Source of the DNA: Bradyrhizobium ivorense
GTDB taxonomy: Bacteria; Pseudomonadota; Alphaproteobacteria; Rhizobiales; Xanthobacteraceae
NCBI RefSeq assembly: GCF_900696085.1
Contig: NZ_CAADFC020000004.1
Span: 1,124,985-1,188,984 of the forward strand
Length of the DNA stretch: 64,000 nucleotides
Direction: 5' to 3'
A program made the translations under genes and the position numbers. Positions within the stretch are counted from its first letter, which is position 1; every line of letters starts with the position of its first letter. Under the pieces are notes generated by a model. It was not told where the DNA came from. It did not search any database and worked only from the letters and a program-made list of their open reading frames with translations. This document shows, in pieces, positions 5,240 through 43,613 of the stretch.

Positions 5240-5824
5240 ATGGAAATGAGCGTAGCACGCGAGTCGATCGAGTTACTGGGCCAGCTGGCGCGGATCCTGT
5301 GGTTTGAAGGCACCAGGCACGGACTGCGCGACCGCGAATGGATGGCGCTGCGCTTCCTCTCCCGCGCCAACCGCTTCTCCAGAACGCCGTCGGCGCTGGC
5401 GAGCTATGTCGGCACCACCCGAGGCACCGCGTCCTTCATCATCAACGAGCTTGAACGGCTGGGATATCTGGAGCGCAAGCCCTCCGCCGAGGACAAGCGC
5501 TCTGTGATGCTCAACGTCACACAGCCGGGCAGGAAGTTCCTGGCGCGCGATCCCGTCAAGGCGCTGGTCGACGCGCTCGGCGTGCTCGACCAGGACAGCA
5601 AGCTGCATTTCCGCGACACGCTCCGCCATGTGCTCGATCAATCCGACGAGGCCGATCGCAAGCACCATGCCGATGTCTGCAAGCGCTGCATCTTCCTCAG
5701 GGAGGACCGCACGACCATCGCCGGCAAGACAGTGGTGGAATTCACCTGCCGGCTGTTTCGCGCCGGGATCGCCGAGGCGGAGACCGATCTGCTGTGCACG
5801 AGCTTCGAGCATCACCGGCCCTAA
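5240..5824 (+). CDS. MarR-type regulator with four-cysteine C-terminal extension (copy 1)
   Basis: A 194-residue winged-helix protein; an in-frame ATG at 5246 is an alternative start. The MarR-like domain covers about residues 25-100 (LRDREWMALRFLSRANRFSR, wing ERKPSAEDKRSVML). The unusual part is the C-terminus, where four cysteines are arranged C-x2-C-x19-C-x15-C (CKRCIFL, FTCRLF, LLCTSF). The paralogue at 42981-43613 keeps exactly the same spacing. Such a cluster could bind zinc or iron-sulfur, or act as a thiol switch; this is inference. The two paralogues sit on either side of the flagellar locus, suggesting but not proving a role in motility control. Confidence 0.85.
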   Translation: MEMSVARESIELLGQLARILWFEGTRHGLRDREWMALRFLSRANRFSRTPSALASYVGTTRGTASFIINELERLGYLERKPSAEDKRSVMLNVTQPGRKFLARDPVKALVDALGVLDQDSKLHFRDTLRHVLDQSDEADRKHHADVCKRCIFLREDRTTIAGKTVVEFTCRLFRAGIAEAETDLLCTSFEHHRP

Positions 5825-5891
5825 AGCACGATGAGATTGGGTTGAATCGTCATCGCGCTTTTAGTCGCGGCGGCCAACGCAAGCGTCGTGA

Positions 5892-6851
5892 TCACGGCGT
5901 CGGCTTGCGCGCCGAGTAGATCGCCCCGCTGCCGCACAGCACGACCAGGCGTCCGTTCTCGTTTCTGATGTCCTCGATGCGGCCGAGCCCGGGCACCTGC
6001 TGGCCGAGCATGGCCTCGACCACGCCGTTCGGTCCCTGCAGGATGGCAATGCCTTCATAGGCCTGGCGAACCGTCCAGCCCTTGACCACCTTGCGCGGCG
6101 CCTGTGCGTGCTCGGGCGGCGATACCGAACCGGTGACGCTGATGTCGGCAGCCGCGGCGGCCGACGCCAGCATCGGCATCGCCTGCGCCGATGGCTGCGA
6201 TTGCGGCGCGACCGGCGCGGCCGCCTGGGCCTGCGCTTGCGCCAGCCTGTCGAGCTTTACCGTCGAGGACGAGCTGACCCGCTCGATGCGGTCCAGATTC
6301 TCAGCGAACCGGCCGAAGCGATCGTTGGTCGCCTTGCTCGACTGATCGACCGCCGTGCGCAAGCCGTCGAGGTTTTCGGTGACGCCCGACATCTGCTTGC
6401 GCAGCTGCGCCACCGTATCGCGCAGGCTCCTGATCTCGGCATTGGCCGCGGTGTTGGTCGGCGCCGGCTGCATGGTGATGAGGTAGGCCATGACGCCCGT
6501 GCAGACGCTGACCACGACGCCGACGGCAACCGCGAGGCTTGCGAGCGGCACCACCCAGGGCGGGCGCGGCGGCGGCGGCTTGGCCACGATCACGGCAGGC
6601 CGCACCACGGCCGGCGCGGGTGTCGAGATCGCCATCTTGTCCATGCGCGCCTTGGCCCGAATGCGCTTGAGACCCTCGAGCGCCTGCTTTGCCAGCACTT
6701 CGTCGGCCGTCGCGGTCGAAGCCTTCGCACCTGTCGCAGGGCTAGCGGTCTGCGTCGAAGCCTGCTTCGGGTCGCGCGGCTCGGTGGCCTGCTTCGCCGC
6801 CCCTAGCGTATTCACGGTGTCATTGGGACGAGCTTTGCCGCCGGACGACAT
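5892..6851 (-). CDS. Membrane-anchored periplasmic protein with coiled coil, function unknown
   Basis: A 319-residue protein I do not recognise. It starts with a roughly 100-residue low-complexity Ala/Thr/Pro-rich cytoplasmic stretch. One transmembrane segment follows near residues 101-127 (PLASLAVAVGVVVSVCTGVM), then a helical coiled-coil region (EIRSLRDTVAQLRKQM, NLDGLRTAVDQSSKA), a Gln/Ala linker, and a small C-terminal domain (VVKGWTVRQAYEGIAIL, GQQVPGLGRIEDIRNENG). The start has GGAG about nine bases upstream. It is convergent with the upstream MarR gene and divergent from lafR across a long regulatory gap. The topology suggests an envelope protein that binds something in the periplasm. 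Confidence 0.75.
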   Translation of the reverse strand: MSSGGKARPNDTVNTLGAAKQATEPRDPKQASTQTASPATGAKASTATADEVLAKQALEGLKRIRAKARMDKMAISTPAPAVVRPAVIVAKPPPPRPPWVVPLASLAVAVGVVVSVCTGVMAYLITMQPAPTNTAANAEIRSLRDTVAQLRKQMSGVTENLDGLRTAVDQSSKATNDRFGRFAENLDRIERVSSSSTVKLDRLAQAQAQAAAPVAPQSQPSAQAMPMLASAAAAADISVTGSVSPPEHAQAPRKVVKGWTVRQAYEGIAILQGPNGVVEAMLGQQVPGLGRIEDIRNENGRLVVLCGSGAIYSARKPTP

Positions 6852-7663
6852 CTGAAATGCTCCGCCTCGATTTGATTCTGCTGAGCGAGGCTAGTTGCCA
6901 AAGCTTGCCCGAAGCCGGTGCACGGCAAGACGTCGATGCGACGTTGCAAGCTCAATGCAGTTCGACACATCCAAGGCAAAGATGAGTCTGAAAAGACACA
7001 CCGCCGCCGCAAGATTTAAGAAAGTCTATTTGCACCGCGACACCTCGGCGAAGCTTCGCGGTGCCGCGCGGCGTTTCAGGCGTCAATCCGGGATTGCAAA
7101 CCGCTCAACGAGCGCGAGGACGAACCCGTTCAAACTGCTCGGATTTCACCGCCACTTAACAAGATCAAACGATGCGCGAATAGATATAGTTCGATTTCCA
7201 AACCAATTGGTATTCATCGAAACACCAAGAAACGATCAGTAAACAACAATAACATAAAGCAAGTTTACCAACAGATTCGTTTCGTGCGCTTGATCAGAAA
7301 TTGCCAGTTGTTACGGTTTGCCTAGTGATTCTCGCCAGTTGGCGAGGAGAAACTGACACAGATCACAGCGCTGATTGGACACGATCAGCCAGTTGGCGCA
7401 ACCGTTCTAGGTCGTTTCTCAACAGCTTCGCGCGGTGATCCGTAAGACACCCGCCAGGCATCATGTCGTAGCGTTCGGTATCGGCGTCGAAGTAACAGGC
7501 CTGCAAGCGCAGGCGCTGAATGCGTAGGGCTGCCTGCGAACAACTCAACCAGAACAACCGTTCGCAGGGGAATGTCGTCAAACAGCATGGCTGCCCGCGC
7601 CGGGCATCACAACAAACCAACCGGCCGGGTCTCAGCGAGTGCGAAACAGGGGCGAAAAACTAA
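6852..7663. other. Long intergenic region upstream of lafR
   Basis: This 812-bp gap separates the divergent membrane-protein gene and lafR. Short open frames exist on both strands, but none has a convincing start, ribosome site or recognisable product. The stretch from about 7150 to 7330 is clearly more AT-rich than its surroundings, as expected of a promoter region. A triple repeat motif (7303-7395) is listed separately. The length suggests extensive control of lafR, possibly with a long 5' leader. Confidence 0.6.
7303..7395. promoter_or_regulatory. Three copies of GCCAGTTG upstream of lafR
   Basis: The octamer GCCAGTTG occurs at 7303-7310, 7334-7341 and 7388-7395. The middle copy lies inside the perfect inverted repeat CTCGCCA-GT-TGGCGAG (7331-7346), and the third keeps part of it (GCCAGTTGGCG). 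The first two copies are 31 bp apart, close to three helical turns, so one protein could bind both on the same DNA face. They sit about 270-360 bp upstream of the lafR start. The binding protein is unknown. Confidence 0.4.
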
Positions 7664-8434
7664 ATGTATATCATCGTTGATGACCGCGAGAGCGTCACGA
7701 ACAGCTATGTTGGAGGCCTGGTTCGTGAAGGCGTTTCATCGATCGGCTTCTCTTCCAACGAATTCTGGGACTGGCTGCGAACCGCAAGTGAACCCGACCT
7801 GGCGGCCGTGGACGCCTTCCTGGTCGGAGAATTCGACGCGCGCGGCAGCCTGCCGCGGGCGGTGCGCCGGCGATCGTCGGCGCCGATCATCGCCATGAGC
7901 AGCCAGAAGATGCTGAAGAGCACGCTGGAGCTGTTCGAGTCCGGCGTCGACGACGTCGTGCACGTGCCGATTCACCTGCGCGAGATTCTGGCGAGGACCG
8001 CGGCGATCGCACGCCGCCGGCTCGGCGACGCGCCGCGGCCGTGCGAGACCCGCATCCAGGTGTTCTTCAACGGGCGCGATCCCGAGATCGGCGGCCGTGC
8101 CCTCACCTTGCCGCGCCGCGAGCTGCGGATTCTCGAATACATGGTCAGCAACCACGGCAAGTGGATCACCAAGACGCAGATCTTCAACGCGGTCTACGGC
8201 ATCTTCGAGTCGACATTCGACGAGAGCGTGATCGAGAGCCATGTCAGCAAGCTGCGCAAGAAGCTGCGCGACCGTCTCGGCTTCGACGCCATCGTGGCGC
8301 GGCGCTATGTCGGCTACCGGCTCGACATCCCGGCCAATGATCCGATCGAGCTGCAGGTGGCGGATTTCGGCAATGTCAGCATGCGCATGAACAGGACCCC
8401 GGCGGGTCCGGCGATGTACTCCGCCGGCAGCTAG
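7664..8434 (+). CDS. lafR: FtcR/LafR-type response regulator, flagellar master regulator
   Basis: A 256-residue OmpR-type protein. The N-terminal receiver-like domain covers about residues 1-125 (IIVDDRESV acidic pair, putative phospho-Asp in AAVDAFLV). The C-terminal winged helix covers about 135-225 (LPRRELRILEYMVSN, KTQIFNAVYG, ESHVSKLRKKLRDRLG, RYVGYRLD). The DNA-binding half closely matches Brucella FtcR, a flagellar master regulator, and its Bradyrhizobium relative LafR, which activates lateral-flagellar genes. The lysine expected near the end of the receiver (usually K-P) is replaced by valine (HVPIHLREIL), so phosphorylation may be altered or lost. No histidine kinase lies in the window. 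It is convergent with the flagellar genes to its right. Confidence 0.88.
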   Translation: MYIIVDDRESVTNSYVGGLVREGVSSIGFSSNEFWDWLRTASEPDLAAVDAFLVGEFDARGSLPRAVRRRSSAPIIAMSSQKMLKSTLELFESGVDDVVHVPIHLREILARTAAIARRRLGDAPRPCETRIQVFFNGRDPEIGGRALTLPRRELRILEYMVSNHGKWITKTQIFNAVYGIFESTFDESVIESHVSKLRKKLRDRLGFDAIVARRYVGYRLDIPANDPIELQVADFGNVSMRMNRTPAGPAMYSAGS

Positions 8435-8623: not shown

Positions 8624-9082
8624 TTATGGCTTGCGCTGGAATTCGTCCTTGGAGACGTAGTTGAAATCCTCGATCAGGACGTCCTGGACGACGTCGGCCT
8701 GCATCCGCGCGTTGACGCGCTGCTTGATGGCGGCGGTGAGGATCGACAGGTCGTAGCGGGCGAGCTTCCTGAAATCCAGCCGCTCGTCGGCATAGATCTT
8801 GCGGAAGGCTTCGTCGACGATGAACGGCTCGGGCGGAACGTTGAGCTGGTGCATGGTCTTGGCGTCGACGGTGTAAGCGAAGCGCGCGATGATGTAGCCC
8901 TGCACATTGCCGTTCTCGACCATCGGCACGCTCAGCGCCCGCGTCTTCTGCGACTGCAGGCCCTCGAGATAGTCGTCCTTTGCCGACAGCAGGCTGCCGT
9001 TTTCCTTCCAGTAGGCAACGGCGTAGCTCGTCCCTGCCGTGAGGATGCACACCCAGAGCCCGGCCAGCACCAGCCTGATCAT
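8624..9082 (-). CDS. FliL-like single-pass protein, second copy in the locus
   Basis: A 152-residue protein with a membrane anchor at about residues 4-24 (LVLAGLWVCILTAGTSYAV) and a periplasmic domain. Its C-terminal third (LTAAIKQRVNARMQADVVQD, LIEDFNYVS) resembles the end of FliL, where an amphipathic helix is followed by a strand. FliL proteins surround the stator at the basal body. It is the last gene of the large minus-strand block and its ATG overlaps the stop of the FlgN-like gene, so it is probably co-translated. A better conserved fliL occurs at 28738-29181, so this may be a specialised paralogue. Confidence 0.6.
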   Translation of the reverse strand: MIRLVLAGLWVCILTAGTSYAVAYWKENGSLLSAKDDYLEGLQSQKTRALSVPMVENGNVQGYIIARFAYTVDAKTMHQLNVPPEPFIVDEAFRKIYADERLDFRKLARYDLSILTAAIKQRVNARMQADVVQDVLIEDFNYVSKDEFQRKP

Positions 9083-9609
9083 TTGCTGTCCTGTGCCCGG
9101 CGGGCGTAGGTGCCGTCCGATTCGGCCTCGCGGATCGCCCTGACGATGATGGTCGCGACCTCACGCACGGCGTCGTAGTGCCGCTCCAGGATGGCGCGGT
9201 TGCGCTTGAGCTTGTCGCGCAGCTGGCGGATCTCCTCGGCGATCTCGGCCTCGCTGCCGAGATAGACCCGCGCCCGCATCAGGCGGACGAATTCCAGCAT
9301 GCTGCGGCTCTTGCGCGCGCTGAAATCGTCGAAGTCGATCTTCTTGCCGGTCTCGAGCGCGCTGGTTTCCTCCTCGATGACGGCCTCGAGCCGCTGGATC
9401 GACGCCAGCAGGCCGCGCACCTCGTCCGATCGCACGCCGTCGGCCTCGACGGTCTCTCTGCTCACGTCGGGCACCAGCACCGGCAACGTGGTGCCCTCCC
9501 GGCCTTCGGTCTCCGCACCGAATTGTTCGGCCACCATGGCCACTGCGCCGTCACTTGCCTGCATTGAAGTTCCCCCCGCGGCTTTGCTCAGCCATCCCAA
9601 TTGCATCAT
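9079..9609 (-). CDS. flgN: FlgN-like flagellar export chaperone
   Basis: About 176 residues from the ATG at 9609, whose first bases overlap the stop of the upstream flgJ-like gene (ATGA). A disordered N-terminus is followed by a long helical region (LLASIQRLEAVIEEETSALE, FDDFSARKSRSMLEFVRLMR, QLRDKLKRNRAILERHYDA) with the two-helix layout of FlgN chaperones, which hold the hook-filament junction proteins FlgK and FlgL before export. Both clients are encoded in the same block. Assignment rests on helical pattern and context, not on a diagnostic motif. Confidence 0.6.
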   Translation of the reverse strand: MMQLGWLSKAAGGTSMQASDGAVAMVAEQFGAETEGREGTTLPVLVPDVSRETVEADGVRSDEVRGLLASIQRLEAVIEEETSALETGKKIDFDDFSARKSRSMLEFVRLMRARVYLGSEAEIAEEIRQLRDKLKRNRAILERHYDAVREVATIIVRAIREAESDGTYARRAQDSK

Positions 9610-10070
9610 TCTGCCTTTCCTGAACCGTTGCGCGCTGCCGGATGCGCGGCGGCGAGTTGTTTCGCGATGCCGATCCCCTTGCCCTGCGCCAGCTGGTTGC
9701 CGAGTTGCTCGGCCAGCATCGACCGCCAGACATTGCCTGCGGTGCCTTTCCCAAACAGCTCCTGCGTCTGCTGCGGCAGCATCGTCTCGACGAACACCTG
9801 CAGCACGAAGGCCTCGAACTTGCGATACACATCGCCCGAGGCGGCCGCCTTGAAGGTTCCTGGCGCGTTCATGTTCGACGCGCCCAGTTCGGCATCTGCC
9901 GCGGCTTGACCATCGGCTGCAGCGGCCTTGCCGACTTCGGACTGCATCGTGGAGAAATCCGCCGCGGCGGATTTCAGCGCGTCGAGCTTTGCGGTCGCGG
10001 CGCGCTGCGCCACCGGGTCGGCGGCCTGCAGAACGTCGAGGACGACGTCGGTTGTGGGTGTCACGATCAT
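9606..10070 (-). CDS. flgJ: FlgJ-like rod assembly protein without a muramidase domain
   Basis: About 154 residues, starting at the ATG at 10070 because it overlaps the upstream stop (ATGA). The C-terminal half (FEAFVLQVFVETMLPQ, LFGKGTAGNVWRSMLAEQLG, AQGKGIGIAKQL) matches the rod-binding N-terminal domain of FlgJ. Gammaproteobacterial FlgJ carries a peptidoglycan hydrolase fused to this domain; here it is absent, and a separate lytic transglycosylase is encoded at 18784-19365. The protein would cap or scaffold rod assembly in the periplasm. Confidence 0.75.
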   Translation of the reverse strand: MIVTPTTDVVLDVLQAADPVAQRAATAKLDALKSAAADFSTMQSEVGKAAAADGQAAADAELGASNMNAPGTFKAAASGDVYRKFEAFVLQVFVETMLPQQTQELFGKGTAGNVWRSMLAEQLGNQLAQGKGIGIAKQLAAAHPAARNGSGKAE

Positions 10071-10489
10071 TGCCTGGACCCGGCTCCCTTGGTCGCAGCC
10101 AGCCAATCATGCCGGCGCACGGGCCTGCCTGCGATCTCCTCGAGCGAGCGCTTCTCCGCCTCACGACGCCGGTCGGCAGCCGCGGCCCTGGCGACCTGCT
10201 CGACCTGCTTGACGCGGCGGTTCTCGGTCCGCACCTGGTCGAGTTGCCGCGAGGCCTCGGCCTGGACCGCGCGCGCCCCGACGCTGGTCGTGGTCAGCCG
10301 CCGCGCGATCGATGCGCTCGACGATCCCGCCGGGGGCCGCAGCGCGTTGAGCGCGCCGATCAGCCAGGCTTCCTCATCCTGCAAGGCCTGCTCCTGCTGG
10401 CGCAATTGCGCGAGCTGCCATTCGGACAGCCGCAACTGCAGCTTCATCAGCGAGACCAGGCGAGCAAGCTTTTCCGCGCGTGACGCCAT
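10067..10489 (-). CDS. fliJ: FliJ-like coiled-coil export protein
   Basis: A 140-residue, very charged, almost entirely helical protein (KLARLVSLMKLQLRLSEWQL, LRQQEQALQDEEAWLI, RTENRRVKQVEQVARAAAA). The two long heptad-bearing helices are what FliJ looks like: it couples the export ATPase FliI to FlhA. It lies directly after fliR and overlaps the next gene by four bases. FliJ is poorly conserved in sequence, so another coiled-coil flagellar protein is possible. Confidence 0.55.
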   Translation of the reverse strand: MASRAEKLARLVSLMKLQLRLSEWQLAQLRQQEQALQDEEAWLIGALNALRPPAGSSSASIARRLTTTSVGARAVQAEASRQLDQVRTENRRVKQVEQVARAAAADRRREAEKRSLEEIAGRPVRRHDWLAATKGAGSRQ

Positions 10490-10495
10490 CGCCGG

Positions 10496-11248
10496 TCACT
10501 CCGCCAGCCATGACGACAGGCCGAGCATGAACTGGGTCAGCAGCTCGTCGCTGGTGAGATAAAGCAGCAGGAACCCGCCGAACATGACGAAGGGTATCGA
10601 GATGAAATAGACCGGGATCGTCGGCGTCAGCTTGTTGATGAGGCCGACCGCGAGATTGACGATCACCGAATAGACGATGAAGGGGCTGGTGATCCGCAGC
10701 GTCAGCACAAACGCCTCGGCGAGGCGATTGACGAGCTGCATCAGCGCCAGGTTGCCCTCGAGCCGGTTGCCGGGGTGCCAGACGTCGTAGGAGTTCATCA
10801 GGCCGCGCAGCACCTGCCAGTGCTGGTCGGTCATGAAGAACAGCGTGGTGACCGCCGCCATGATCAGCGGCACCAGCGCCGGCGCCGGATCGGTGTCGCC
10901 GACCGGCGTTCCCGGGATGTTGCTCATCCCGATCGCACCCGCCATCATCGTCGACATGGTCTGCAGCGCCAGGAAGAACACGCGCCCCGCAAGCCCGATG
11001 ACGCTGCCGACCAGCAGTTCGGAGCCGATCAGGAACGCAAGCCGGAACGGCGAGGCGTCCGCCAGCAGCGGCCGCAGCATCGTGACCAGCAATGGCGTCA
11101 GCGCGAAGGTGGTGACGACGGCGACGAACAGGCGGACCTGCGGCGGAACGTTGACGCTGGAGAACCCCGGCACCAGCATCAGGCAGGCGCCGATCCGGCA
11201 GAACACGATGAAGGTCGCGAGCACGGTATCAGTGAGGCCAGCGATCAC
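10496..11248 (-). CDS. fliR: Flagellar export gate protein FliR
   Basis: About 250 residues from a GTG at 11248 that overlaps the flhA stop (GTGA). A longer open frame running upstream is out of frame with flhA and must be a shadow. Motifs of the FliR/YscT family are visible: [38 protein letters not shown], and [20 protein letters not shown]. It is an inner-membrane protein with about six helices that forms the export pore with FliP and FliQ, both encoded in this locus. Confidence 0.95.
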
Positions 11249-13326
11249 GACACGGCTCCGAGCGCCCTGATCTCGGCGCTGCGCGCGACCTCGACATGCG
11301 ACAGGATCGGCAGGGTCGGGAAAACCCGCTCCAGGATCATCCGGACATAGGGCCGCGCTTCCGGCGTCACCGCCAGCACGACGCTGGTGCCCTTCTCGGT
11401 GAACTTGCGGACCGCGGCGGTGGCTTCGGTGGCGAACTGCTCGATCAGGCGGGGATCGGCGTCGAACTCGACGACGTCGCCCTTGGCGTCGCGCTTCAGG
11501 CTCTTGTGGAACGCGAGGTCCCAGCGGTTGCCGAGCCGGACCACGTTGAGCACCCCGTTGTCGGCGAGATCGCCGCAGATCTGCTGGGCGAGGCGGACCC
11601 GGACATGCTCGGCGACCTGTTCGGAGCGCCGTACATGCGGCGCGATCTCGGCGATCGCCTCGAGAATCAGGTGCAGGTTGCGGATCGACACGCGCTCGGC
11701 CAGCAGGATCTTGAGGATCGCCAGCAGGCCCGAATAGGAAATCTGCGACGGGCAGAGGTCGTCGAGCAGGCGCTTGTATTCCGGATCCAGCCGGTCCAGC
11801 AGGCCGCGCATGTCCTTGTAGGAGAGCAGCTGAGCGAGATTGGCCCTGATCACTTCGCTGAGATGGGTGAGCAGCACCGACAGATTGTCGACCGGCTTGC
11901 AGCCCTGCCGCTTCACTTCCTCGGTGAACGCTTCGGTGACCCAGAGCGCCTTCATGCCGAAGGCCGGCTCGATCACCTCGTCGCCGGGCACGTCGGGCTT
12001 GCCGTCCTGATCGACCAGCACCAGCACTTCGCCGAGCCTGAGCTCGCCATGCGCCACCCGCGTGTCGTGGATCCGGATCTGGTATCCCTTCGGATCGATC
12101 GACAAATTGTCGGTGAGCTTGATCTCCGGAATCACGAAGCCGTATTGCTTGGCGAATTTCTTGCGGATCTTGCTGACGCGATGCGCGAGCTCGGTGCGCG
12201 AGCCGAGCAGGTGAACCGCAAGCTGGCTGCCCAGCGAGAGCTCGATCTCGGCGGTCTTCAGCGATTCCTTCACCGAGTCCTTGGCCTCGGTCTGGGCCCG
12301 CTCGTCGGCCTTGCGCGCCTCTTCCTTCTGAAGCTCGGCGGCCTGCCGCTTCGGCAGCGAGTAGCCGACAAATCCCATCACGGCGCCGAGCAGCACGAAC
12401 GGCAGCATCGGTAGCCCGGGCATCAGCGCCAGCACAAACATCATCAGCGCCGCGGCCGACACCGCGCGCGGATAGCCGCCGAGCTGCCGCAGCACCGCCT
12501 GCTCCGCCGATCCGCGGGTGCCGCCCTTGGAGACCAGGAGGCCCGCCGACAGCGACACGATCAGCGCCGGCATCTGCGACACCAGGCCGTCGCCGACCGA
12601 CAGTTTTGTATAGACGTCGGCGGCGCGCGCCAGGCTCAGGCCGTGATGCGTCACGCCGATCACGATGCCGCCGAAGATGTTGATCGCGGTGATCAGCAAG
12701 CCGGCGATGGCGTCGCCGCGGACGAATTTCGAGGCGCCGTCCATCGCGCCGAAGAACGCGCTCTCTTCCTCGAGCTCGCGGCGGCGGCGCTGGGCTTCCT
12801 TGTCGTCGATCAGGCCGGCGGAGAGGTCGGCATCGATCGCCATCTGCTTGCCGGGAATGGCATCCAGCGTGAAGCGGGCACCGACCTCGGCGATACGGGT
12901 GGCGCCCTTGGTGATGACGACGAAATTCACCGTGACCAGGATCGCGAAGATGATCAGGCCGATGACGAAATCGCCGCCCATCACGAATTTGGAGAAGCCC
13001 GCCACGACGTAGCCGGCGGCGTGCTCGCCCTCGCCGCCGCGCGACAGGATCAGGCGGGTGGTGGCGATGTTGAGCGCGAGCCGCAGGATGGTCGCGATCA
13101 GCAGCACGGTCGGAAACGCCGAGAAGTCGAGCGGCCGCTGGATCCACAGCGCAACCATCAGGATCAGCGCCGACAGCGCGATCGAGAACGCGAGGCCAAG
13201 GTCGATCAGCACCGGCGGAATCGGCAGGAACAGGATCGTGAGCATGACCACGATGCCGCCCGCAAAGAAGGCGTCCGCGCCGAGGCGTCGCGGGGTTGGC
13301 AGACCAGCAGTCAACGTATCGGCCAT
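11245..13326 (-). CDS. flhA: Flagellar export gate protein FlhA
   Basis: A 693-residue member of the FHIPEP family with the expected length. The N-terminal half has about eight membrane helices ([40 protein letters not shown]) and the conserved cytoplasmic loop ([29 protein letters not shown]). The C-terminal half is the cytoplasmic substrate-docking domain ([31 protein letters not shown]). It would form the nonameric ring of the export apparatus. It lies between fliQ and fliR and overlaps fliR by four bases. Confidence 0.97.
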
Positions 13327-13404
13327 GGGGCACCGGCAGCAGATTCAGTCAGGCAATCTGCCGTGCAAAGCTTACGCGAGGGTGGCGGCTTCGCGCGCTG
13401 CGGA

Positions 13405-13671
13405 TCAGAATCCGTGTTCGATCCGGGAATAGACCATCTCGGTGAAGGTCGAGATGTGGGCGCCGATGAACGAGCCGGAGGCGGCGACGACGACCAGGAT
13501 GACGATGATCTTCGGCACGAAGGTCAGCGTCATCTCCTGCACCTGGGTCAGGGCCTGGATCAGCGCGATGATGGTGCCGACCAGCATCGCCGCACCGACC
13601 GCGGGGCCGGAGGCGACAATGATGGTCCAGATTGCCGCCTGGACGATATCGAGGGCGTCTCTCTCGTTCAT
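13405..13671 (-). CDS. fliQ: Flagellar export gate protein FliQ
   Basis: An 88-residue protein of two membrane helices, the normal size for FliQ. Diagnostic stretches are GPAVGAAMLVGTIIALIQAL and TQVQEMTLTFVPKII. It joins FliP and FliR in the export pore. It begins two bases after the flgD stop and is followed by flhA after about 80 bp. Confidence 0.95.
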   Translation of the reverse strand: MNERDALDIVQAAIWTIIVASGPAVGAAMLVGTIIALIQALTQVQEMTLTFVPKIIVILVVVAASGSFIGAHISTFTEMVYSRIEHGF

Positions 13672-13673
13672 GG

Positions 13674-35673: not shown

Positions 35674-35686
35674 GCGGGGTCAGCGG

Positions 35687-36727
35687 TCAGCGAAAGACCA
35701 GCTCATCCTCCTGCTCGGGATTGAGCTCGATTTCGCCGCGCTCAGCGAGCTCGAGCGCGAGATCGGTGATCACGCGCCGCGCCTCCAGCACGTCGCGCTG
35801 GTTCGAGGGCTCGCCGACTGCCAGCTCGTGATCGACGACACGCCTGACGCGCGACGCCACCGAGGACAGGATCAGCTCGCGGAAGGCCTTGTCGGTGCCC
35901 TTCAGCGCGACGACGATGCGGTCGGTCGGCACCTGGTCGAAGATCATGGTGCGCGCCTTCGGCGTCAGGTTGACGACGTCGTCGAAGGTGAACAGCAGCT
36001 CCTTCAGCACCTCCGCCGACTTCGGCCGCTTCTCCGACAGGCTCTTGAGGATGTCCTCGATATGACCGCGCTCCATCTTGTTGATGATGTCGGCTACGCG
36101 CGCATAGGTATCGGCGCCGAGATTGCGGGCGAAATTCAGCGTCAGGTCCTCGTGCAGCGTCTTCTCGACGATCCGCATCGCATCGTCGACGATCGGCTTC
36201 AGGCTGAGCACGCGCCGCATCAGCTCGTTGCGCAGGCTGGAGGGCAGCTGGCTCATCACCTTGGCGGCGCAGGTCGGCTTGACCTTGGAGAGGATCAGCG
36301 CCGCGGTCTGCGGGTGTTCCTTGGAGAGATAGCTCGCCAGCGAGTTTTCCGACACCGACGAGACGCGATCCCACACCGAGCGGCTGGAATTGCCGAGCAG
36401 ATCCGACATGATCTGCGAGACCTGCTCGGGCGGCAACACGTCGCCGAGTACGGCCTCGAGCCCGCCGAGGCTGCCGAGAATGTTGGCGCCCATCGAGAAT
36501 TGCTGGGCAAATTCCTCGACGATCGCCTCGAGCTCCTGCGCCGTGATCGGCCGCAGCTCGGCCGCGGCCTTGGTGACGATGCGGATTTCCTGCGGCTCGA
36601 ACTGCGCCAGCACGCTCGCGGCCGCCTGCCGACCCATGGCCAGCAGCAGCGCCGCGACCTTTTCCGTCCCGCCCAGCGGCGCGATACCGCGCGGCTTGGC
36701 CGGAGCGATGCCTTGAGCTGCCGCCAC
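35687..36727 (-). CDS. fliG: Rotor switch protein FliG
   Basis: A 346-residue FliG: AALLLAMGRQAAASVLAQFE, the EHPQTAALILSKVKP motif of the middle domain, and the C-terminal torque helix region (FDDVVNLTPKARTMIFDQVP, LVVALKG-like, ELILSSVASRVRRVVDHELA). It connects the MS-ring to the stator. It lies two bases after fliN. Confidence 0.96.
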   Translation of the reverse strand: MAAAQGIAPAKPRGIAPLGGTEKVAALLLAMGRQAAASVLAQFEPQEIRIVTKAAAELRPITAQELEAIVEEFAQQFSMGANILGSLGGLEAVLGDVLPPEQVSQIMSDLLGNSSRSVWDRVSSVSENSLASYLSKEHPQTAALILSKVKPTCAAKVMSQLPSSLRNELMRRVLSLKPIVDDAMRIVEKTLHEDLTLNFARNLGADTYARVADIINKMERGHIEDILKSLSEKRPKSAEVLKELLFTFDDVVNLTPKARTMIFDQVPTDRIVVALKGTDKAFRELILSSVASRVRRVVDHELAVGEPSNQRDVLEARRVITDLALELAERGEIELNPEQEDELVFR

Positions 36728-36729
36728 GG

Positions 36730-37122
36730 TCAGACTTCACCTTGACCGAGCGGCCCGACGATTTCCGTCAGGGAGACGCCGAACCGGGAATTGTCCTCTT
36801 CGACCACTACGACCTCGCCGCGCGCGACGATCCGGCCGTTGACCACGACGTCGACGGGTTCGCCAACCCGATGATCGAGCGGCACCACCGCGCCGCGGCC
36901 GAGCTTCATCAGATTGGCCACCGGAATGGTCGCAGAACCCAGCACCACCTGCATGGTGACGGGAATCCGCATGATCGCATCGACGTTGGCAAACTTGCCG
37001 GTCTCTTCGGCGGTTCGGGCCGCGATCTCCGCCAGCCGCTCCAGCGGCGACGTGTCGATGTGCGGCTCGCCGGTCACGCCAGCCCGGCTGGCAGAGGGCT
37101 CGTAGTCGAAAGGTTGCGTCAT
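36730..37122 (-). CDS. fliN: C-ring switch protein FliN
   Basis: A 130-residue protein with a disordered N-terminus and a SpoA domain from about residue 48 (IMRIPVTMQVVLGSATIPVA, LMKLGRGAVVPLDHRVGEPV, DVVVNGRIVARGEVVVVEED). It forms the lower C-ring with FliM. An AAGAGG sequence precedes the start. About 110 bp separate it from the small membrane-protein gene upstream. Confidence 0.96.
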   Translation of the reverse strand: MTQPFDYEPSASRAGVTGEPHIDTSPLERLAEIAARTAEETGKFANVDAIMRIPVTMQVVLGSATIPVANLMKLGRGAVVPLDHRVGEPVDVVVNGRIVARGEVVVVEEDNSRFGVSLTEIVGPLGQGEV

Positions 37123-37232
37123 CTTGATGTTGCCTCTTGGTCATTCCCCTTCCAGGGGCACGGCCCTGGATCATCTCCGTGCCCGTGCGCTACCGTCGGA
37201 TGACGGCCCGAGACAGGCGCAAGCCCTTAGCC

Positions 37233-37544
37233 TTACGGCCTTTCCGTATCGACGCTGCCGGTCGCCGGCAGCGGCTGCGGCCGCCGCGCGTCGAGCGCCG
37301 CGATCGCCTCGTGAGCCTGGTCGATCTTGGCGCCCAGCACGTTGGCGAGCCGCCCGAGATTGGCGGTGGATTCGCGCGCCGCGGTGATGACGGTGTCGAA
37401 GGCCCCCGCCGTCTCGTTGACGACGGTCGAGAACTCGCCGTGATAGCTGCGCAGCCGCGCCAGCTCGCGGTGCATCCTGGTCACCCGCAGGCTGGTGAAG
37501 GCGAGCGCGATCAGCAGCACGGCATCAACGAGATAGGATATCAT
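37233..37544 (-). CDS. Small membrane-anchored coiled-coil protein between fliM and fliN
   Basis: About 103 residues from the ATG at 37544, overlapping the fliM end by 20 bases. A single N-terminal membrane helix ([19 protein letters not shown]) is followed by a helical segment (MHRELARLRSYHGEFSTVVN, LANVLGAKIDQAHEAIAAL) and a short Pro-rich tail. I do not recognise a characterised family. Its place inside the switch operon suggests a role near stator or C-ring. Confidence 0.72.
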   Translation of the reverse strand: MISYLVDAVLLIALAFTSLRVTRMHRELARLRSYHGEFSTVVNETAGAFDTVITAARESTANLGRLANVLGAKIDQAHEAIAALDARRPQPLPATGSVDTERP

Positions 37545-38469
37545 CGACAAACTCCCGCTTCTGATCGACGGGATCCGCCACCTGCATGGCGTAATAGCCA
37601 TCAAGCTGGCCGATCTGGCACCAGAACAGCACCTGGTTGTTGCTCTCGAGCCGCGCCAGCGTGCGCGGCGTGGCGTCGAGCTCGAGCACCTGTCCGACGT
37701 GGAATTTCGCGACGTCGTCGAGGGTGATCATCCGCTCGTCGAGCACCGCATTCAGCGTCACCTCGGTGCGCTGAACCTCGCTCTCCATCTGCTCGCGCCA
37801 GTTCGGATCGGCCGCCCGGCCGTCGCTGACCACGACATGGGCGAGCTTCTGGCGCAGCGGATTGAGCACCGAATGCGGGATAATCAGGAACATCTGGCCG
37901 CCGCGGTACAGCGCCTGCAGCATGATGTTGGCGCAGATCGACATGTTGCCGCTGCGGCCGATCGCCAGCGACGCCATCGCGGTCTCGACCCGTTCGAGCC
38001 GGAAGGTGACGTCGGCGGTGGCGGCGAAGGCAGATTGCAGCGCCTTGGCGAATCGCTCGAACAGCACATGCACCAGACGCAGCTCGATGTTGGAGAACGC
38101 CCGCTCGACGTCGATCGGCGGCTCCGCGCCGTCGGAGCCGAACAGCGCCTCGACCATCGTGAACACGAAGTCGCGATCGAGCATGATGAGGACCCGGGCG
38201 TCCCACTGCTCGGCATAGAGCACCGCGGCCAGCGCGTTGCCCTCATACTCTTTGATGATATCGCCGACGCGGCCGTTGCTGATGCCGCTGACCGAGAAGT
38301 AGCACGGCGTGCCCGCCATCGGTTGCAGACTGTCGGTGCACGATGCTGCCATGCGATCGAAGATCACATTGAGCATCGGCATGCGTTCGATCGAAATACC
38401 CGCCGCATCGAGCAGGTAATTCGGCAGGCGCTTCTGCTGCGTCTCGGTGCCGAGCTCGTCCATCATCAT
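37525..38469 (-). CDS. fliM: C-ring switch protein FliM
   Basis: A 314-residue protein with the FliM middle domain ([40 protein letters not shown]) and a C-terminal SpoA domain ([40 protein letters not shown]). The start has three tandem ATG codons and overlaps the motA stop. The N-terminus ([18 protein letters not shown]) lacks the usual LSQxEIDALL-like segment that binds phosphorylated CheY, so switching control may differ here. Confidence 0.92.
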
Positions 38470-39365
38470 GCCCGCGCAACCTTCGGTTCGACCTCGGCGA
38501 CGGCGGCCTTGCCCGGTCCGGCGATGGTCTCGTTCTCGACGACGTCGATCGAGGGCCGCTCGGTGCCGGCAATCATCTTGCGGCCGTGCTCGACGGCGAT
38601 CTGCGGCATCGCGCCGTTCATGAACGCCAGCAGGGTCTGCTTGACGATGATGTAGGGCCGGCAGCGCTTCTCGCGCGTCATCTTAATCTTGATCGCGAAT
38701 GGCGAGATGATGCCGTAGGACAGGAAGATGCCGGCGAAGGTGCCGACCAGCGCCGCACCGATGAAGCCGCCGAGCAGCTTGGGCGACTGATCGAGCGCGC
38801 CCATCGCCTTGATGACGCCGAGCACCGCGGCGACGATGCCGAGCGCCGGCAGCGCCTCCGCCACGATCACCAGGGCGTGGTAGGGCGCGAGCTTGCTCTT
38901 CACGATGGTGTGGATTTCCTCATCCATCAGCGCCTCGATCTCATGGGTGCGGGCATTGCCCATGATGATCAGGCGGACATAGTCACAGATGAAATGCAGC
39001 AGGGCGGGGTCGGCCAGCACGCTGGGAAAGCTCTTGAAGATTTCCGAGTTCGAGGGATCGTCGATATGCGCTTCGACCTCGTTGCGGCCCTTGCCGCGCA
39101 ACTCGCGCATCAGGGCATGCAGCGCCCCGAGCAAATCGAGGTAATAGCGCTCGCCGGGGACCGCGCCGGTCACTGCCTGCACCGACGCGAGCCCGGTATC
39201 CATCACCACTTTCCAGGGGTTGGCCACGATGAAGGTGCCCACCGCGGTACCCAGGATGATCACGAACTCCCAGGGCTGCATCAGCACGCCAAGGTGCCCG
39301 CCCATGGCGGCAAAGCCGCCGAGCAACGCCGCAACCGTGATCAAGATGCCCACGAAACTGCCCAA
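38466..39365 (-). CDS. motA: Stator protein MotA
   Basis: About 299 residues from a TTG at 39365. This start lines up with the first residue of other alphaproteobacterial MotA proteins, giving [20 protein letters not shown]; the open frame upstream is not MotA-like, and a GTG at 39353 is an alternative. Four membrane helices, the conserved proline helix ([20 protein letters not shown]) and the cytoplasmic loop ([20 protein letters not shown]) are present. It pairs with MotB. It leads the switch block and is divergent from the DUF1217 gene. Confidence 0.93.
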
Positions 39366-39503
39366 CGCGCCGCTCCATCGCCGATCCCATCGACGATCTC
39401 TATTCGGCGACGCTTGCGCGAAGCTGGCTTCACGCCGCGCCAGCCCCGCGCAAGCTATCGGGCGCAGCTTGGCGCCACGTCGCAATAGCCGGCGAGGGCT
39501 CTC

Positions 39504-40298
39504 ATGCTGTCCACGATCGCGGATTACACCAGAATATCGAACAACATGACCCGGTCGCTCTCGCTCACCGCGAAGAAGCCGGATGTCAGCCGCGAGACCA
39601 CGTACTACCTGGCCAACATCGGCAAGGTCACCAGCATCGACGACTTCCTGAACAACTACCGCCTCTTCTCTTACGCGATGAAGGCCTACGGGCTGAGCGA
39701 CATGACCTACGCCAAGGCGTTCATGCGCAAGGTGCTGACCGAGGGCGTCACGAACACCAACAGCTTTGCCAATAAGCTGTCGGACCCGCGCTACCGGGAA
39801 TTCGCCAAGGCATTCAATTTCGCCGCGCTCGGCCCCAAGGCGACCCAGACTACCGCGGCTCAGACCGGTACCGCGACCAACTATGTCCAGCAGGTGATGG
39901 AGCAGGACGCCGGCGACCAGAACGAGGGCGTGCGCCTCGCACTCTATTTCACCCGCAAGGCGTCCTCGATCACGAGCCCCTACCAGATCCTCGCGGACAA
40001 GGCGCTGACCCAGGTGGTGCAGACCGCGCTCGGCCTGTCGCCGAACGTCAGCGCGGCCGATATCGACAAGCAGGCCGCGATGCTCTCCAAGATGATCAAC
40101 ATCGCGGACTTCAAGGACCCGGCCAAGGTCGCCAAGTTCGCGCAGCGCTTTGCCGCGATGTGGGACGCGAGCCAGGCCGCCGACGGTACCGGCAACAACC
40201 CGTACAGCTCTGCGCTGATCCTGATCGGCGGCCAGACGACGTCGGGGATGGACACCGACCTGCTGTCAAAGCTGCAATCCCTCCGGTTCGGAAGATAG
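39504..40298 (+). CDS. DUF1217 flagellar-locus protein
   Basis: A 264-residue soluble, mostly helical protein with the DUF1217 pattern: [60 protein letters not shown]. This family is found almost only beside flagellar genes in rhizobia, and its role is not established. The absence of a signal peptide and its Asn/Thr/Gln-rich composition resemble proteins exported by the flagellar apparatus. It is followed five bases later by flgF. Confidence 0.85.
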
Positions 40299-40302
40299 CA
40301 CC

Positions 40303-41031
40303 ATGCAATCGGCTCTCTATGTCGGTCTGTCGGCCCAGGTCGCGCTGGAAAAGCGCCTGCAGACGATCGCCAACAACGTCGCCAACGTCAACACGGCCGC
40401 CTTCCGCACCGACGTGGTGAAGTTCGAGACCGTGCTGTCGCGTGCCGGTGCCAATCCCGTGGCGTTCTCCTCGCCGGGCGACAACATCATCTCGCGCGAG
40501 GCTGGCACGGTGACCCAGACCGGGAACCCGCTCGATGTCGCGGTGGCCGGACAGGGCTGGCTCGCCTTCGCCGGCCCCAACGGCACGGTCTATACCCGCG
40601 ACGGCCGGCTGCAGATCGCGCCCAACGGCGACCTGCAGACTGTGACCGGCTTTCCCGTCGTCGATTCCGGCGGCGCCCAGATCACGCTCGACCCGAACGG
40701 CGGGCCGATCTCGATCGCGCGCAACGGCGCGATCACCCAGGATCGCGCCGAGGTCGGCACGATCGGCCTGTTCACGATCCCCGCCGACGCCAATCTCGAG
40801 CGCTACGGCAATTCCGGCGTCGTGCCCGATCGCGCCGCCACCGCCGTGACCGATTTCACCCGCGACGGTTTCCGGCAGAGCTATGTGGAGGGATCGGGCG
40901 CCAATCCGATGCTCGAACTGACCCGGCTGATCTCGGCGTCGCGCGCCTTCGACGGCACCAATTCGATGGTAGAGGGCACCGAGAGCTCGCTGCAGGATGC
41001 GATCCGCACGCTGGGTGAGCCCGCGAAATAA
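40303..41031 (+). CDS. flgF: Proximal rod protein FlgF
   Basis: A 242-residue rod protein: SALYVGLSAQVALEKRLQTI, ANNVANVNTAAFRTDVVKFE at the start; DVAVAGQGWLAFAGPNGTVY in the middle; LELTRLISASRAFDGTNSMV at the end. It joins FlgB, FlgC and FlgG in the rod. It lies between the DUF1217 gene and fliI, the common rhizobial order. Confidence 0.96.
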   Translation: MQSALYVGLSAQVALEKRLQTIANNVANVNTAAFRTDVVKFETVLSRAGANPVAFSSPGDNIISREAGTVTQTGNPLDVAVAGQGWLAFAGPNGTVYTRDGRLQIAPNGDLQTVTGFPVVDSGGAQITLDPNGGPISIARNGAITQDRAEVGTIGLFTIPADANLERYGNSGVVPDRAATAVTDFTRDGFRQSYVEGSGANPMLELTRLISASRAFDGTNSMVEGTESSLQDAIRTLGEPAK

Positions 41032-41058
41032 ATCTCGCTGCGAACGCGGGGAATTCTC

Positions 41059-42384
41059 TTGAACGCGCTACGGCAACTGGAATGGGCGCTGCAGGAACTG
41101 CAGCAGAACACGCCGCTGGCAAGCGTCAGCGGCGCCATTTCGGAGATCGCGCCGACGCATTTCCGGATCTCGGGCCTGTCGCGCTTCGTGCGCCTCGGCG
41201 AGTTGATCGGCGTCAATTCGGCTGATCGCACCCAGATCGGCGAAGTGGTCCGCATCGACAGCGACGGCGTCGTCGCAAAGCCGTTCGACCGGCAATTTGC
41301 CGGCGGACTGGGCTCGGTCGCCTTCCGGATGCCGCCGCTGACCTTCGCGCCGGACCCGAGCTGGAAAGGCCGTGTCATCAACGCGCTCGGCGCGCCGCTG
41401 GACGGACAGGGCCCGCTGGTGCCGGGATCGCGCGCCGTCTCGGCCGAGGCGGAGCCGCCGCCGGCCATGAAGCGGGCGCGCGTTCACAAGCCGCTGCGCA
41501 GCGGCGTGCGCGTGATCGATCTGTTCGCGCCGATTTGCGCCGGCCAGCGCGTCGGCGTCTTTGCTGGCTCCGGCGTCGGCAAATCGACCTTGCTGGCGAT
41601 GCTCGCCAAGAGCCAAGGTTTCGACACCGTGGTGCTGGCGCTGGTCGGCGAACGCGGCCGCGAGGTGCGGGAGTTCATCGAGGACGTGCTCGGCCATAAC
41701 CGCGCCCGCGCCGTCACCATCGTCTCGACCGGTGACGAAAGCCCGATGATGCGGCGGCTGGCGCCGAAGACCGCGATGGCGGTCGCCGAATATTTTCGCG
41801 ACCGCGGCGAATCAGTGCTGCTGGTGGTCGACTCGATCACCCGATTCGCTCATGCCTCCCGTGAGGTGGCATTGGCCGCCGGCGAGCCCGCGGTCGCGCG
41901 CGGCTACGCCCCGACCGTGTTCACCGATCTGCCGCGCCTGCTTGAGCGGGCCGGGCCCGGCGAGGAAGGATCGGGGACGATCACCGGCATTTTTTCCGTG
42001 CTGGTCGATGGCGATGACCACAATGATCCGGTCGCCGACACGATTCGCAGCACGCTCGACGGACATATCGTGCTCAGCCGGCACATTGCCGACCAGGCGC
42101 GCTATCCGGCGGTCGACGTTCTTGCCTCGGTCTCACGCCTGGCGCATTGCGTCTGGGATCCCGAGGAACGCGAGCTGGTGAGCAAGCTGCGCGCCATGAT
42201 CGCCAAATATGAAGACACCAGCGATCTTCGTCTGATGGGCGGCTATCAGTCCGGGCGCGATTCGGCGCTCGACCAGTCGGTCGAGATTGTGCCGAAGATC
42301 TACGCCGCGATGAGGCAGAACGCCTCGGCTCCGCCCAGCACCGACCCATTCCGCGAGCTGCGCGACGCGATGAAGGCCGACTGA
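41059..42384 (+). CDS. fliI: Flagellar export ATPase FliI
   Basis: A 441-residue ATPase from a TTG start. Walker A is GVFAGSGVGKSTLLAM (about residue 170), Walker B is ESVLLVVDSITRFAHAS, and the family motif DGHIVLSRHIADQARYPAVD is present. N-terminal segments (VSGAISEIAPTHFRISGLS) match FliI. It energises substrate unfolding at the export gate with FliH and FliJ. It ends the plus-strand group. Confidence 0.97.
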   Translation: MNALRQLEWALQELQQNTPLASVSGAISEIAPTHFRISGLSRFVRLGELIGVNSADRTQIGEVVRIDSDGVVAKPFDRQFAGGLGSVAFRMPPLTFAPDPSWKGRVINALGAPLDGQGPLVPGSRAVSAEAEPPPAMKRARVHKPLRSGVRVIDLFAPICAGQRVGVFAGSGVGKSTLLAMLAKSQGFDTVVLALVGERGREVREFIEDVLGHNRARAVTIVSTGDESPMMRRLAPKTAMAVAEYFRDRGESVLLVVDSITRFAHASREVALAAGEPAVARGYAPTVFTDLPRLLERAGPGEEGSGTITGIFSVLVDGDDHNDPVADTIRSTLDGHIVLSRHIADQARYPAVDVLASVSRLAHCVWDPEERELVSKLRAMIAKYEDTSDLRLMGGYQSGRDSALDQSVEIVPKIYAAMRQNASAPPSTDPFRELRDAMKAD

Positions 42385-42980
42385 CGCGGCGATCCGGCGA
42401 ATCACTTTCCCGGAACAGCAGCTGGACTCGTTGGTGAGCGCCGGCGCAATACACCTTGTCCGCGCATTCCTGCAAAATTCTCCATTTCGATTGTCGATCG
42501 CGCTGGTTGCCAACTTCGTTGATGCACGTTTTCCGTCAGCGCGCTGCATCAATGATAGGCAGCGACTTGCGTGCATTAGAACTGTCACATACTTCGGTAT
42601 AGTCGTTTGACGAAGAGTTTTGTGACAAGAGCAGGCCATACGACTTGAACGCTGTGTACTACTCTTGCGTTCAAACCTTTCCAGGTGCGTCTTTACTTGC
42701 TTTTCTTGGGAAGCTGATTCATCGTTCGGCGTAACTCAGAAAACGTTTACTTGAGACTTGGACTTAGGGGCTTCAGTTGAAGAGTTCGGATCCATCGTCC
42801 GGCGGTGAGGATCACTGCGGCTCCCGTTCAATACCCTTGCGATCGGCGCGCGATCAGCGGCAAAGCTCTTTGCGCCGCTCGCAAGGTTTCGCCGGCAGTC
42901 GCGCTTACCTCGAGCTGTGCGCCAACCATGGCCTGTCGCGGCATCGGGACGCCGCGCAGCAGATTGCGGCGAGGTAGGTC
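42385..42980. other. Intergenic region upstream of second four-cysteine MarR gene
   Basis: About 600 bp without a supported gene; small open frames here have no plausible product. AT content rises from about 42540 to 42780. An inverted repeat, TTGAACGC (42646-42653) against GCGTTCAA (42667-42674) with a 13-base spacer, could be an operator. The promoter for the following MarR gene must lie here. Confidence 0.5.
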
Positions 42981-43613
42981 ATGGCCTTGACGCGCGAAGC
43001 AGTCGAACTGCTGGTTCAGGCCGCGAGAGCCTGGTACTTCGAAGGCGATCAACACGGGCTGCGCGATCGCGAATGGATGGCGCTGCGCTTCCTCGGGCGC
43101 GCCAACCGATTTTCGCGGACACCAACCGCGCTGGCAGGCTTCATCGGCGCCACCAAGGCCACCGCCTCGCAGATCGTGAAGACGCTCGAGAACAAATCCT
43201 ATCTGGTCAGAAAGCCGTCACACGAAGACAAGCGCTCGGTGGTGCTCTGCGTGACGCCGCAGGGCGAAAAATGCCTGAGCCAGCATGATCCGATCAATCA
43301 TGTGCTGAATGCAGTGACGGCGCTCGGCAATGACGATTGCGTCCGGCTGCACGATTCCCTCACGCGGGTGCTCAATCATCTCGACGCGGCGCATCAGCGA
43401 CTCAATGCCAGCACCTGCCGCGACTGCATGTTCCTCGCCGAACGCGGCCCGGCACCCGGCAGGGGCCGCACCGCCGAATTCGTCTGCCGGCTCTACCGCG
43501 CCCCGATCGCGCTCGAAGAGACCGAACTCCTATGCACCAGCTTCGAGCGCACCCGCGATCGCCCGAAGATCGACGAGCAGCCCGAGCGCCTGCGCGTCGT
43601 CAGCCAGGCGTAG
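42981..43613 (+). CDS. MarR-type regulator with four-cysteine C-terminal extension (copy 2)
   Basis: A 210-residue paralogue of the protein at 5240-5824. The shared DNA-binding part reads LRDREWMALRFLGRANRFSR in this copy, with one substitution against the other, and the wing is RKPSHEDKRSVVL. The C-terminal cysteines keep the spacing C-x2-C-x19-C-x15-C (TCRDCMFLAE, EFVCRLY, LLCTSFE). It adds a short charged tail. It lies 597 bp after fliI on the same strand and is followed by a terminator, so it is its own unit. Confidence 0.86.
   Translation: MALTREAVELLVQAARAWYFEGDQHGLRDREWMALRFLGRANRFSRTPTALAGFIGATKATASQIVKTLENKSYLVRKPSHEDKRSVVLCVTPQGEKCLSQHDPINHVLNAVTALGNDDCVRLHDSLTRVLNHLDAAHQRLNASTCRDCMFLAERGPAPGRGRTAEFVCRLYRAPIALEETELLCTSFERTRDRPKIDEQPERLRVVSQA

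Follow-up and report, generated by a model that had tools for sequence, protein, structure and literature searches.

Lateral flagella of Bradyrhizobium are costly, and lafR, the gene of their regulator, is reportedly responsive to iron, oxygen and oxidative stress; no description was found of how these signals reach it. In Bradyrhizobium diazoefficiens the lateral genes form a contiguous 35-kb cluster (PMC6406911), and LafR, a class IB regulator (PMC5996035, PMC10888616, PMC8429497), is encoded in strain USDA 110 by blr6846 (PMC10888616). Expression of lafR rises with arabinose and oxidative stress and falls with mannitol, low oxygen and iron deficiency (PMC8429497, citing Mongiardini 2017). 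The class IA flagellar regulators of rhizobia, VisNR, stand above Rem/LafR and are absent from B. diazoefficiens (PMC8429497). The present report concerns a stretch of 64,000 nucleotides from Bradyrhizobium ivorense (contig NZ_CAADFC020000004.1, positions 1,124,985 to 1,188,984 of the forward strand; hereafter the window), which contains a locus that matches the 35-kb cluster and that, as judged from its genes, is the Bradyrhizobium lateral flagellar locus with its regulator lafR. At the two edges of this locus are genes for two regulators of the MarR family, MarR-A (5240..5824, + strand, 194 amino acids) and MarR-B (42981..43613, + strand, 210 amino acids), each ending in a tail with four cysteines. 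The reading preferred here, with a probability of about 0.5, is that MarR-A and MarR-B form a regulatory addition to lafR, restricted to one clade, whose tail binds a metal, perhaps as a redox-active iron-sulfur (Fe-S) site. They would then be two linked candidate sensors, with a probable metal site, for the timing of lateral flagella.

Both genes are probably in print as candidate flagellar regulators. Genistein induces the flagellar cluster of USDA 110 together with two MarR proteins, Blr6843 and Blr6886, which were named as possible regulators of the cluster, and the flagellar genes are NodW-dependent (PMC5793154). The number of Blr6843 is three before that of lafR, blr6846 (PMC10888616), just as MarR-A lies near lafR; Blr6843 and Blr6886 are probably the orthologues of MarR-A and MarR-B, with blr6886 behind fliI, on the basis of gene order and numbering and not of sequence. 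For blr6886 a PhaR box is listed and its transcript is 2.26-fold lower in a phaR mutant (PMC6201568), and a phaR mutant has 2.5-fold more LafR (PMC10888616). Regulators other than MarR-A and MarR-B, as the PhaR and NodW reports indicate, also act on the lateral system. The available parts of PMC5793154, PMC10888616 and PMC6201568 make no mention of the cysteine tail or of a pairing of Blr6843 with Blr6886, and the part of PMC4999443 available concerns FnrN/FixK and not the tail. In the open-licence literature no description was found of the tail, the A/B pairing or the co-inheritance with lafR.

Among described regulators, ArnR of Corynebacterium is like MarR-A and MarR-B in having a MarR-like winged helix, a dimerization helix and a C-terminal sensory part, which in ArnR binds a [4Fe-4S] cluster; it has no significant homology to known O2/NO sensors (PMC12343034). 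However, ArnR has three conserved cysteines (179, 193 and 223) with neither C-x2-C nor C-x15-C (PMC12343034), whereas MarR-A and MarR-B have four at another spacing and do not belong with its three-cysteine sensory domain. Solved MarR structures (PA3341, 2fbh; HpaR, 22oz; MepR) share the winged helix and the dimer helices, and their matches reach no further than the start of the cysteine tail. SufR is an Fe-S winged-helix repressor with C-terminal cysteines, of the same general plan and of another helix-turn-helix family and spacing. The four invariant cysteines of MarR-A and MarR-B are compatible with Fe-S regulators of the SufR, ArnR and IscR types. VisNR is of the LuxR type; MarR-A and MarR-B are MarR by Pfam and do not have its LuxR-type helix-turn-helix. 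By analogy, they may act at the step equivalent to VisNR, above Rem/LafR.

Paralogy and the four-cysteine tail

The preliminary description, made from the letters of the window, had proposed two MarR proteins with a common DNA-binding half. Both open reading frames are present, and in pairwise alignment they are identical at 100/192 positions overall (52%), at 61/93 in the DNA-binding half (66%), at 14/48 in the middle and at 25/51 in the tail (49%). MarR-A and MarR-B are true paralogues, because their local alignment score is 482 and the maximum among 500 shuffles is 54. The Pfam family MarR_2 (PF12802) scores 48.6 and 40.4 bits against a cut-off of 27, as expected of the MarR winged helix; it spans only residues 27-88 of MarR-A and 25-86 of MarR-B, and is matched by 32/32 relatives (expectation value, E, up to 1). 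No named MarR equivalog of NCBIfam (MprA, HpaR, OhrR, LdtR and others) came above its cut-off, the best being MprA with 49 against 157 bits. In the AlphaFold2 model, helices 2-18, 104-113 and 117-142 (predicted local distance difference test, pLDDT, about 62-80) lie around the winged helix as dimerization helices do, and the best Foldseek matches of the model are MarR structures, at E 3.6e-6 and a template modelling score of about 0.36 by query length. In the source genome these two proteins are the only matches of the family profile at E up to 1e-22, and nothing else there matches MarR-B better than E 2e-4.

The tail comprises Cys147, 150, 170 and 186 in MarR-A (5678..5797, + strand) and Cys146, 149, 169 and 185 in MarR-B (43416..43535, + strand), and its gaps of 2, 19 and 15 residues are identical in the two proteins (C-x2-C-x19-C-x15-C), as had been noticed from the window; MarR-B has three further cysteines (90, 98 and 120) with no counterpart in MarR-A. 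That the tail lies outside the standard MarR fold also stands: the Pfam match ends at residues 88 and 86, and relatives of the family profile in the PDB stop at or before position 141 of 190 (best 60 of 122). The four columns are invariant in an alignment of 19 diverse Bradyrhizobium rows and in one of 32 rows that includes other genera, where identity to MarR-B falls to 23% and the four cysteines make up half of only eight invariant columns. The motif C-x2-C-x(9-37)-C-x15-C fits 205 of 210 distinct family sequences, the window's two counted; this figure is to be read with the facts that the pattern itself demands x15, that the relatives were gathered with queries including the tail, which mostly leaves out tail-less MarR proteins by design, and that some order- and class-scan matches end short of the tail. 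The five misses include three decayed Bradyrhizobium copies (L060, truncated at the N-terminus with the four cysteines kept, and L065 and L070, which are broken); L263 has serine at the fourth position and L274 ends ahead of the tail. Since the middle loop is 9 to 37 residues long, with x20 the commonest and variation within the genus as well, while x2 and x15 are fixed, the x19 common to both paralogues looks like a coincidence inside a conserved pattern; the spacing first noticed is real, and 19 is not a conserved number.

On this pattern of conservation the tail is very probably a metal-binding site in each protein; the preliminary description had suggested a metal or iron-sulfur site, and a site of this kind is well supported by the sequences (four cysteines invariant in 32/32 rows at identities down to 23%). 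If there is a metal, the chances that it is an Fe-S cluster would be about even. None of the matches found in Pfam, NCBIfam or the PDB extends over the tail, and a tail-only profile search gave nothing credible. When 31 tails were compared with Pfam, there were only weak matches to seven families at E up to 10, zinc ribbons included; no zinc ribbon family was above cut-off, the best being DZR_2 (E 0.015, 15.6 bits against 27, 3/31 tails), and HIPIP (PF01355) was not among the seven. The tail marks a widespread alphaproteobacterial subfamily of regulators, and because no Pfam or NCBIfam model or solved structure was found that covers it, one biochemical result would annotate many genes.

High-potential iron-sulfur proteins (HiPIP, PF01355) resemble the tail in a C-x2-C-aromatic element and a third cysteine; their match covers three cysteines, with x13 in the short ones against x15. 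In hhalign the HiPIP profile was the best of those tried, with a probability of 33% and 0/100 cysteine-keeping shuffles as high, but this falls to 5% (2/100) when one of four HiPIP fragments is omitted. Homology to HiPIP was rejected, being below significance and unstable between the HiPIP sets. The DksA zinc finger gave 7% (score 15.0, 1/100 shuffles as high), a score exceeding one of the two HiPIP sets, and Zn_ribbon_4 gave 2%, with 28/100 shuffles as high, which is control level. All of these figures come from small profile sets, with four fragments drawn from three loci for HiPIP, five fragments from among 12 loci for DksA, and 12 fragments for Zn_ribbon_4. Because DksA also beat 99/100 shuffles, the profile comparison leaves Fe-S and zinc unseparated.

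These zinc matches bear on a different explanation, in which the tail is a structural zinc site whose cysteines only hold the C-terminus, and MarR-A and MarR-B are MarR proteins that regulate the lateral flagellum in response to a small aromatic ligand, for example a flavonoid or phenolic. It would account for the induction of Blr6843 and Blr6886 by genistein along with the flagellar cluster, for which phenolic ligands were suggested (PMC5793154), and it agrees with the weak DZR_2 and DksA matches. However, binding of genistein by the MarR proteins does not follow from induction through NodW, the profile probabilities are low (7% for DksA, 2% and control level for Zn_ribbon_4), and the reported iron response is left unexplained. 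This explanation is accordingly held to be possible, at well below even odds.

A thiol-disulfide switch without metal is a further possibility, and a rather improbable one. Other MarR proteins, of the OhrR type, are thiol sensors, with a reactive cysteine near the N-terminus; the first cysteine of MarR-A is at 147 and that of MarR-B at 90, so that they are not of the OhrR type. Activation of lafR by oxidative stress (PMC8429497) would suit such a switch, but all four cysteines are kept together in 205/210 sequences whereas a disulfide pair needs two, and the dependence on iron would again have no explanation.

Co-inheritance with lafR in Bradyrhizobium

In a genus sample of 146 genomes, lafR (called at E up to 1e-30) is present in 67 and a MarR-B match (E up to 1e-15) in 83, and all 67 are among the 83. 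A four-cysteine MarR of at least 58% identity occurs in 67/67 lafR genomes, and an intact one of at least 50% identity in 2 of the 79 genomes that have no lafR. Both paralogues were found in all 64 genomes with a close lafR (at least 78% identity), which bears out their co-occurrence with lateral flagellar loci in the Bradyrhizobium sample, and the reading frames of both genes are open over 196 codons or more in every one of these carriers. The start-to-start distance from MarR-A to lafR is 2.3-2.7 kb in 64/64 genomes. In the 53 genomes in which MarR-A and MarR-B are on one contig, they are 37.6-39.4 kb apart in all except G064 (L279, L280), where the lateral locus is split, by rearrangement or an assembly fault, into one piece that has MarR-A next to lafR and another, about 4.2 Mb away, that has MarR-B next to fliI. 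Furthermore, the gene immediately upstream of MarR-B is fliI, in the same orientation, in 70/71 named loci, the odd one being a second copy on a small contig. The genes that follow MarR-B in the window have counterparts of >40% identity in 0/51 loci in which 6 kb or more follows MarR-B, and three matches in the same 51 loci are to a more distant ATP-binding cassette (ABC) gene (58062). The idea that MarR-B controls the adjacent DUF1989, RidA and ABC genes was rejected because they are its neighbours in none of these 51 loci.

The 16 genomes that match MarR-B and have no lafR are also of several kinds. Three (G063, G018 and G013) have broken A- or B-type copies, two (G062 and G104) have an intact MarR-A-like gene, eight (G004, G019, G025, G028, G045, G053, G057 and G138) have a subfamily at 38-40% identity to MarR-B, and three (G041, G075 and G137) have proteins at 30-38%. 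None of the first five, whose genes are of the A or B type, showed an apparent A/B chimaera.

In addition, three genomes (G037, G073 and G081) carry a lafR of 62-65% identity with a four-cysteine MarR 0.5-0.6 kb behind it. Structural flagellar genes were not found within stretches of 14-16 kb around these orphan pairs in the three genomes, and in G037 the next 20 kb on each side (about 55 kb) gave only one short flagellin-like match about 25 kb off. A C-terminal extension of LafR (8327..8431, + strand, in the window's 256-residue protein) was present in 9/9 of the MarR-linked LafR proteins looked at, namely the three orphans and six of the window type including the window's own, and none of the 22 short LafR proteins inspected has it; the longer tail of L317 is unrelated. 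The LafR tree gave no resolution on whether the two extended groups are sisters.

The preliminary description had attributed redox- or metal-dependent control of motility to the pair. Control of motility is supported indirectly, by co-inheritance, by fixed position, by the three decayed copies in lafR-less genomes and by the orphan lafR-MarR pairs, and MarR-A and MarR-B are probably dedicated to lateral flagella in this Bradyrhizobium clade. The same facts can be set against an explanation by hitch-hiking, that is, two four-cysteine MarR genes chanced to adjoin the lateral locus, were inherited vertically with it and regulate something else. The association is seen in one genus and probably one lineage, lafR-bearing relatives are without the genes, relatives elsewhere adjoin other genes, and two lafR-less genomes keep an intact MarR-A-type gene, all of which hitch-hiking would allow. 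However, the frames are open in 64/64 carriers while the genes downstream of MarR-B change (0/51), copies are broken in three genomes that have no lafR, and orphan lafR-MarR pairs exist in three others; hitch-hiking is therefore considered improbable.

Proposed control of lafR and its weighing

In the preferred explanation, MarR-A and MarR-B would be dimeric winged-helix regulators, each with a C-terminal C-x2-C-loop-C-x15-C metal site. Their most likely targets are lafR, which would then switch on the structural flagellar genes, and their own promoters. The oxidised, iron-loaded Fe-S form may permit lafR expression and the reduced or iron-free form may not. Metal binding, Fe-S over zinc, lafR as the target and the direction of control are all points that we infer. 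A redox-active Fe-S site is favoured because one rule fits the reported signs of lafR (oxidative stress on, low oxygen off, iron deficiency off); a cluster-loss sensor, or a zinc or thiol switch, would fit fewer of them. The full redox-switch chain is tentative, with the odds against it. It is likewise somewhat unlikely that the tail is a new alphaproteobacterial Fe-S or redox-metal domain and the pair an upstream lafR switch for iron, oxygen and oxidative stress, replacing VisNR and accompanied by a co-evolved LafR extension.

Promoters were aligned for MarR-A (21 sequences), MarR-B (119) and lafR (21), and each set shows a conserved block. Inside that of MarR-A is an imperfect palindrome, CTGAAATTTTCTG (5025..5037, + strand), a weak candidate operator and the only own-promoter palindrome of the pair; its exact form CTGAAA-T-TTTCAG is present in 8/21 aligned promoters, and the palindrome occurs at chance frequency in the window. 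Upstream of lafR, the palindrome CTCGCCAGTTGGCGAG (7331..7346) is a further candidate operator, with arms intact in 18/21 aligned promoters and two places genome-wide, one upstream of lafR and one other. The alignment of 119 upstream regions places a conserved non-coding block at 42690..42812 (+ strand), which is probably MarR-B's own promoter.

Several results tell against the preferred explanation. No palindrome common to the MarR-A, MarR-B and lafR promoters was seen by eye and pattern search, without a formal motif finder, and CTCGCCAGTTGGCGAG is absent upstream of the orphan lafR beside a MarR in three genomes; a shared operator was rejected on these two grounds and on the chance frequency of the MarR-A palindrome. 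In the AlphaFold2 model the CxxC of the tail falls within a short helix, which is followed by two strands and a further helix before the last cysteine; the mean pLDDT there is about 55 or lower, and because of this low value no claim is made on cysteine geometry. The score of the DksA zinc finger is also unfavourable to an Fe-S tail. The orphan-pair genomes G037 and G081 have one MarR match each, and their separate lateral-type locus has its own lafR with no MarR there. The intact MarR-A-like genes of G062 and G104 persist without lafR. Moreover, the 64 carriers are probably one lineage, as lateral flagella have been described for the B. japonicum group alone (PMC6406911, section 3.2), so the co-occurrence count does not represent 64 independent events, and the Fisher p-value computed for it takes no account of phylogeny. 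Finally, relatives outside the genus do not share the flagellar link. The family scan covered 159 genomes, with up to 20 first-look candidates scored per genome and the profile at E up to 1e-25; lafR was present in 26 genomes, 22 of them outside the genus, the profile matched in 17, and the four-cysteine profile matched in none of the 22 lafR-bearing genomes of other genera. Therefore, lateral flagella do not need a four-cysteine MarR. In the order scan 45/297 genomes matched the profile at 1e-22, five of them only with matches short of the tail, and flagellar genes were not found close by in 20 order loci. In the class scan 41/289 genomes matched at 1e-25, 29 with a match reaching the tail; the motif is present in 27/29 class loci fetched (the window's own excluded), and no flagellar genes were seen in the flanks of about 1.5 kb of these 29. 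Because relatives elsewhere are not beside flagellar genes, the flagellar link, as far as these genomes indicate, is a specialisation of one group.

The preliminary description had also offered insertion of the locus between two members of a duplicated pair. Two same-strand paralogues at both edges would suit this, and family copies are clustered elsewhere (G165, G852). In a tree of 60 chosen rows, however, MarR-A forms a clade (100/94) and MarR-B another (99/96), and MarR-B joins L043 and L047 (99/95), which are paralogues elsewhere in two other Bradyrhizobium genomes, with no resolution of the relation of A to B. In addition, among the Bradyrhizobium genomes tabulated none that lacks the locus has adjacent A and B genes, and the 22 lafR-bearing genomes of other genera are without family members. 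Insertion is thus unsupported by the tree and by these relatives, was dropped as an explanation and is regarded as very improbable.

Flanking genes and relatives at other loci

The lateral flagellar locus extends over 8624..42384, and 14 of 15 proteins tested there have Pfam matches, which comprise FlhA, FlgK, FlgE, FliF, flagellins, FliL, FlgI, FlhB, FliG, FliM, MotA, a rod-binding protein, DUF1217 and a FliI-type ATPase. The lafR gene (7664..8434, + strand, 256 amino acids) is identified as an OmpR-type regulator of the lateral flagellum by Trans_reg_C (2.5e-15) and by its relatives. Between MarR-A and lafR lies the gene of a conserved protein (5892..6851, - strand). This protein and that at 8624-9082, which together flank lafR, are present in 20/20 orthologous loci with no Pfam match above cut-off, and are possibly undescribed parts of the lateral system.

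Lateral-type flagellar genes with FlhA about 79% identical occur in the elkanii-type genomes G037 and G081 (L351, L352), as against the report that places lateral flagella only in the B. japonicum group (PMC6406911). The second lafR of elkanii-type genomes groups with other genera (100/100) in the LafR tree, and their lateral locus has several adjacent DUF1217 matches (L351 12316-14343, L352 12170-14194).

Many Bradyrhizobium genomes have a third four-cysteine MarR paralogue (L044, L048-L057), near most of which are genes of a tripartite ATP-independent periplasmic (TRAP) transporter and a two-component system. In several other genera the four-cysteine MarR is divergent from the gene of a conserved, exported-looking protein of about 250 amino acids (L240 7702-8451, L244 6965-7714 and similar loci), for which the one tested gave no Pfam match. 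At L232, a 44-residue match to an unidentified open reading frame of the lateral locus (13674-14258) lies 6.5 kb from the MarR. The record JAUEPE010000007.1 (L195), titled Frankia sp. RB7, contains a Bradyrhizobium-type fliI-MarR-B locus and is probably mislabelled or contaminated. In some genera the four-cysteine MarR is near pckA (L228, L229, L236 and L237), and three of these loci also have an OmpR-type, ChvI-like response regulator nearby.

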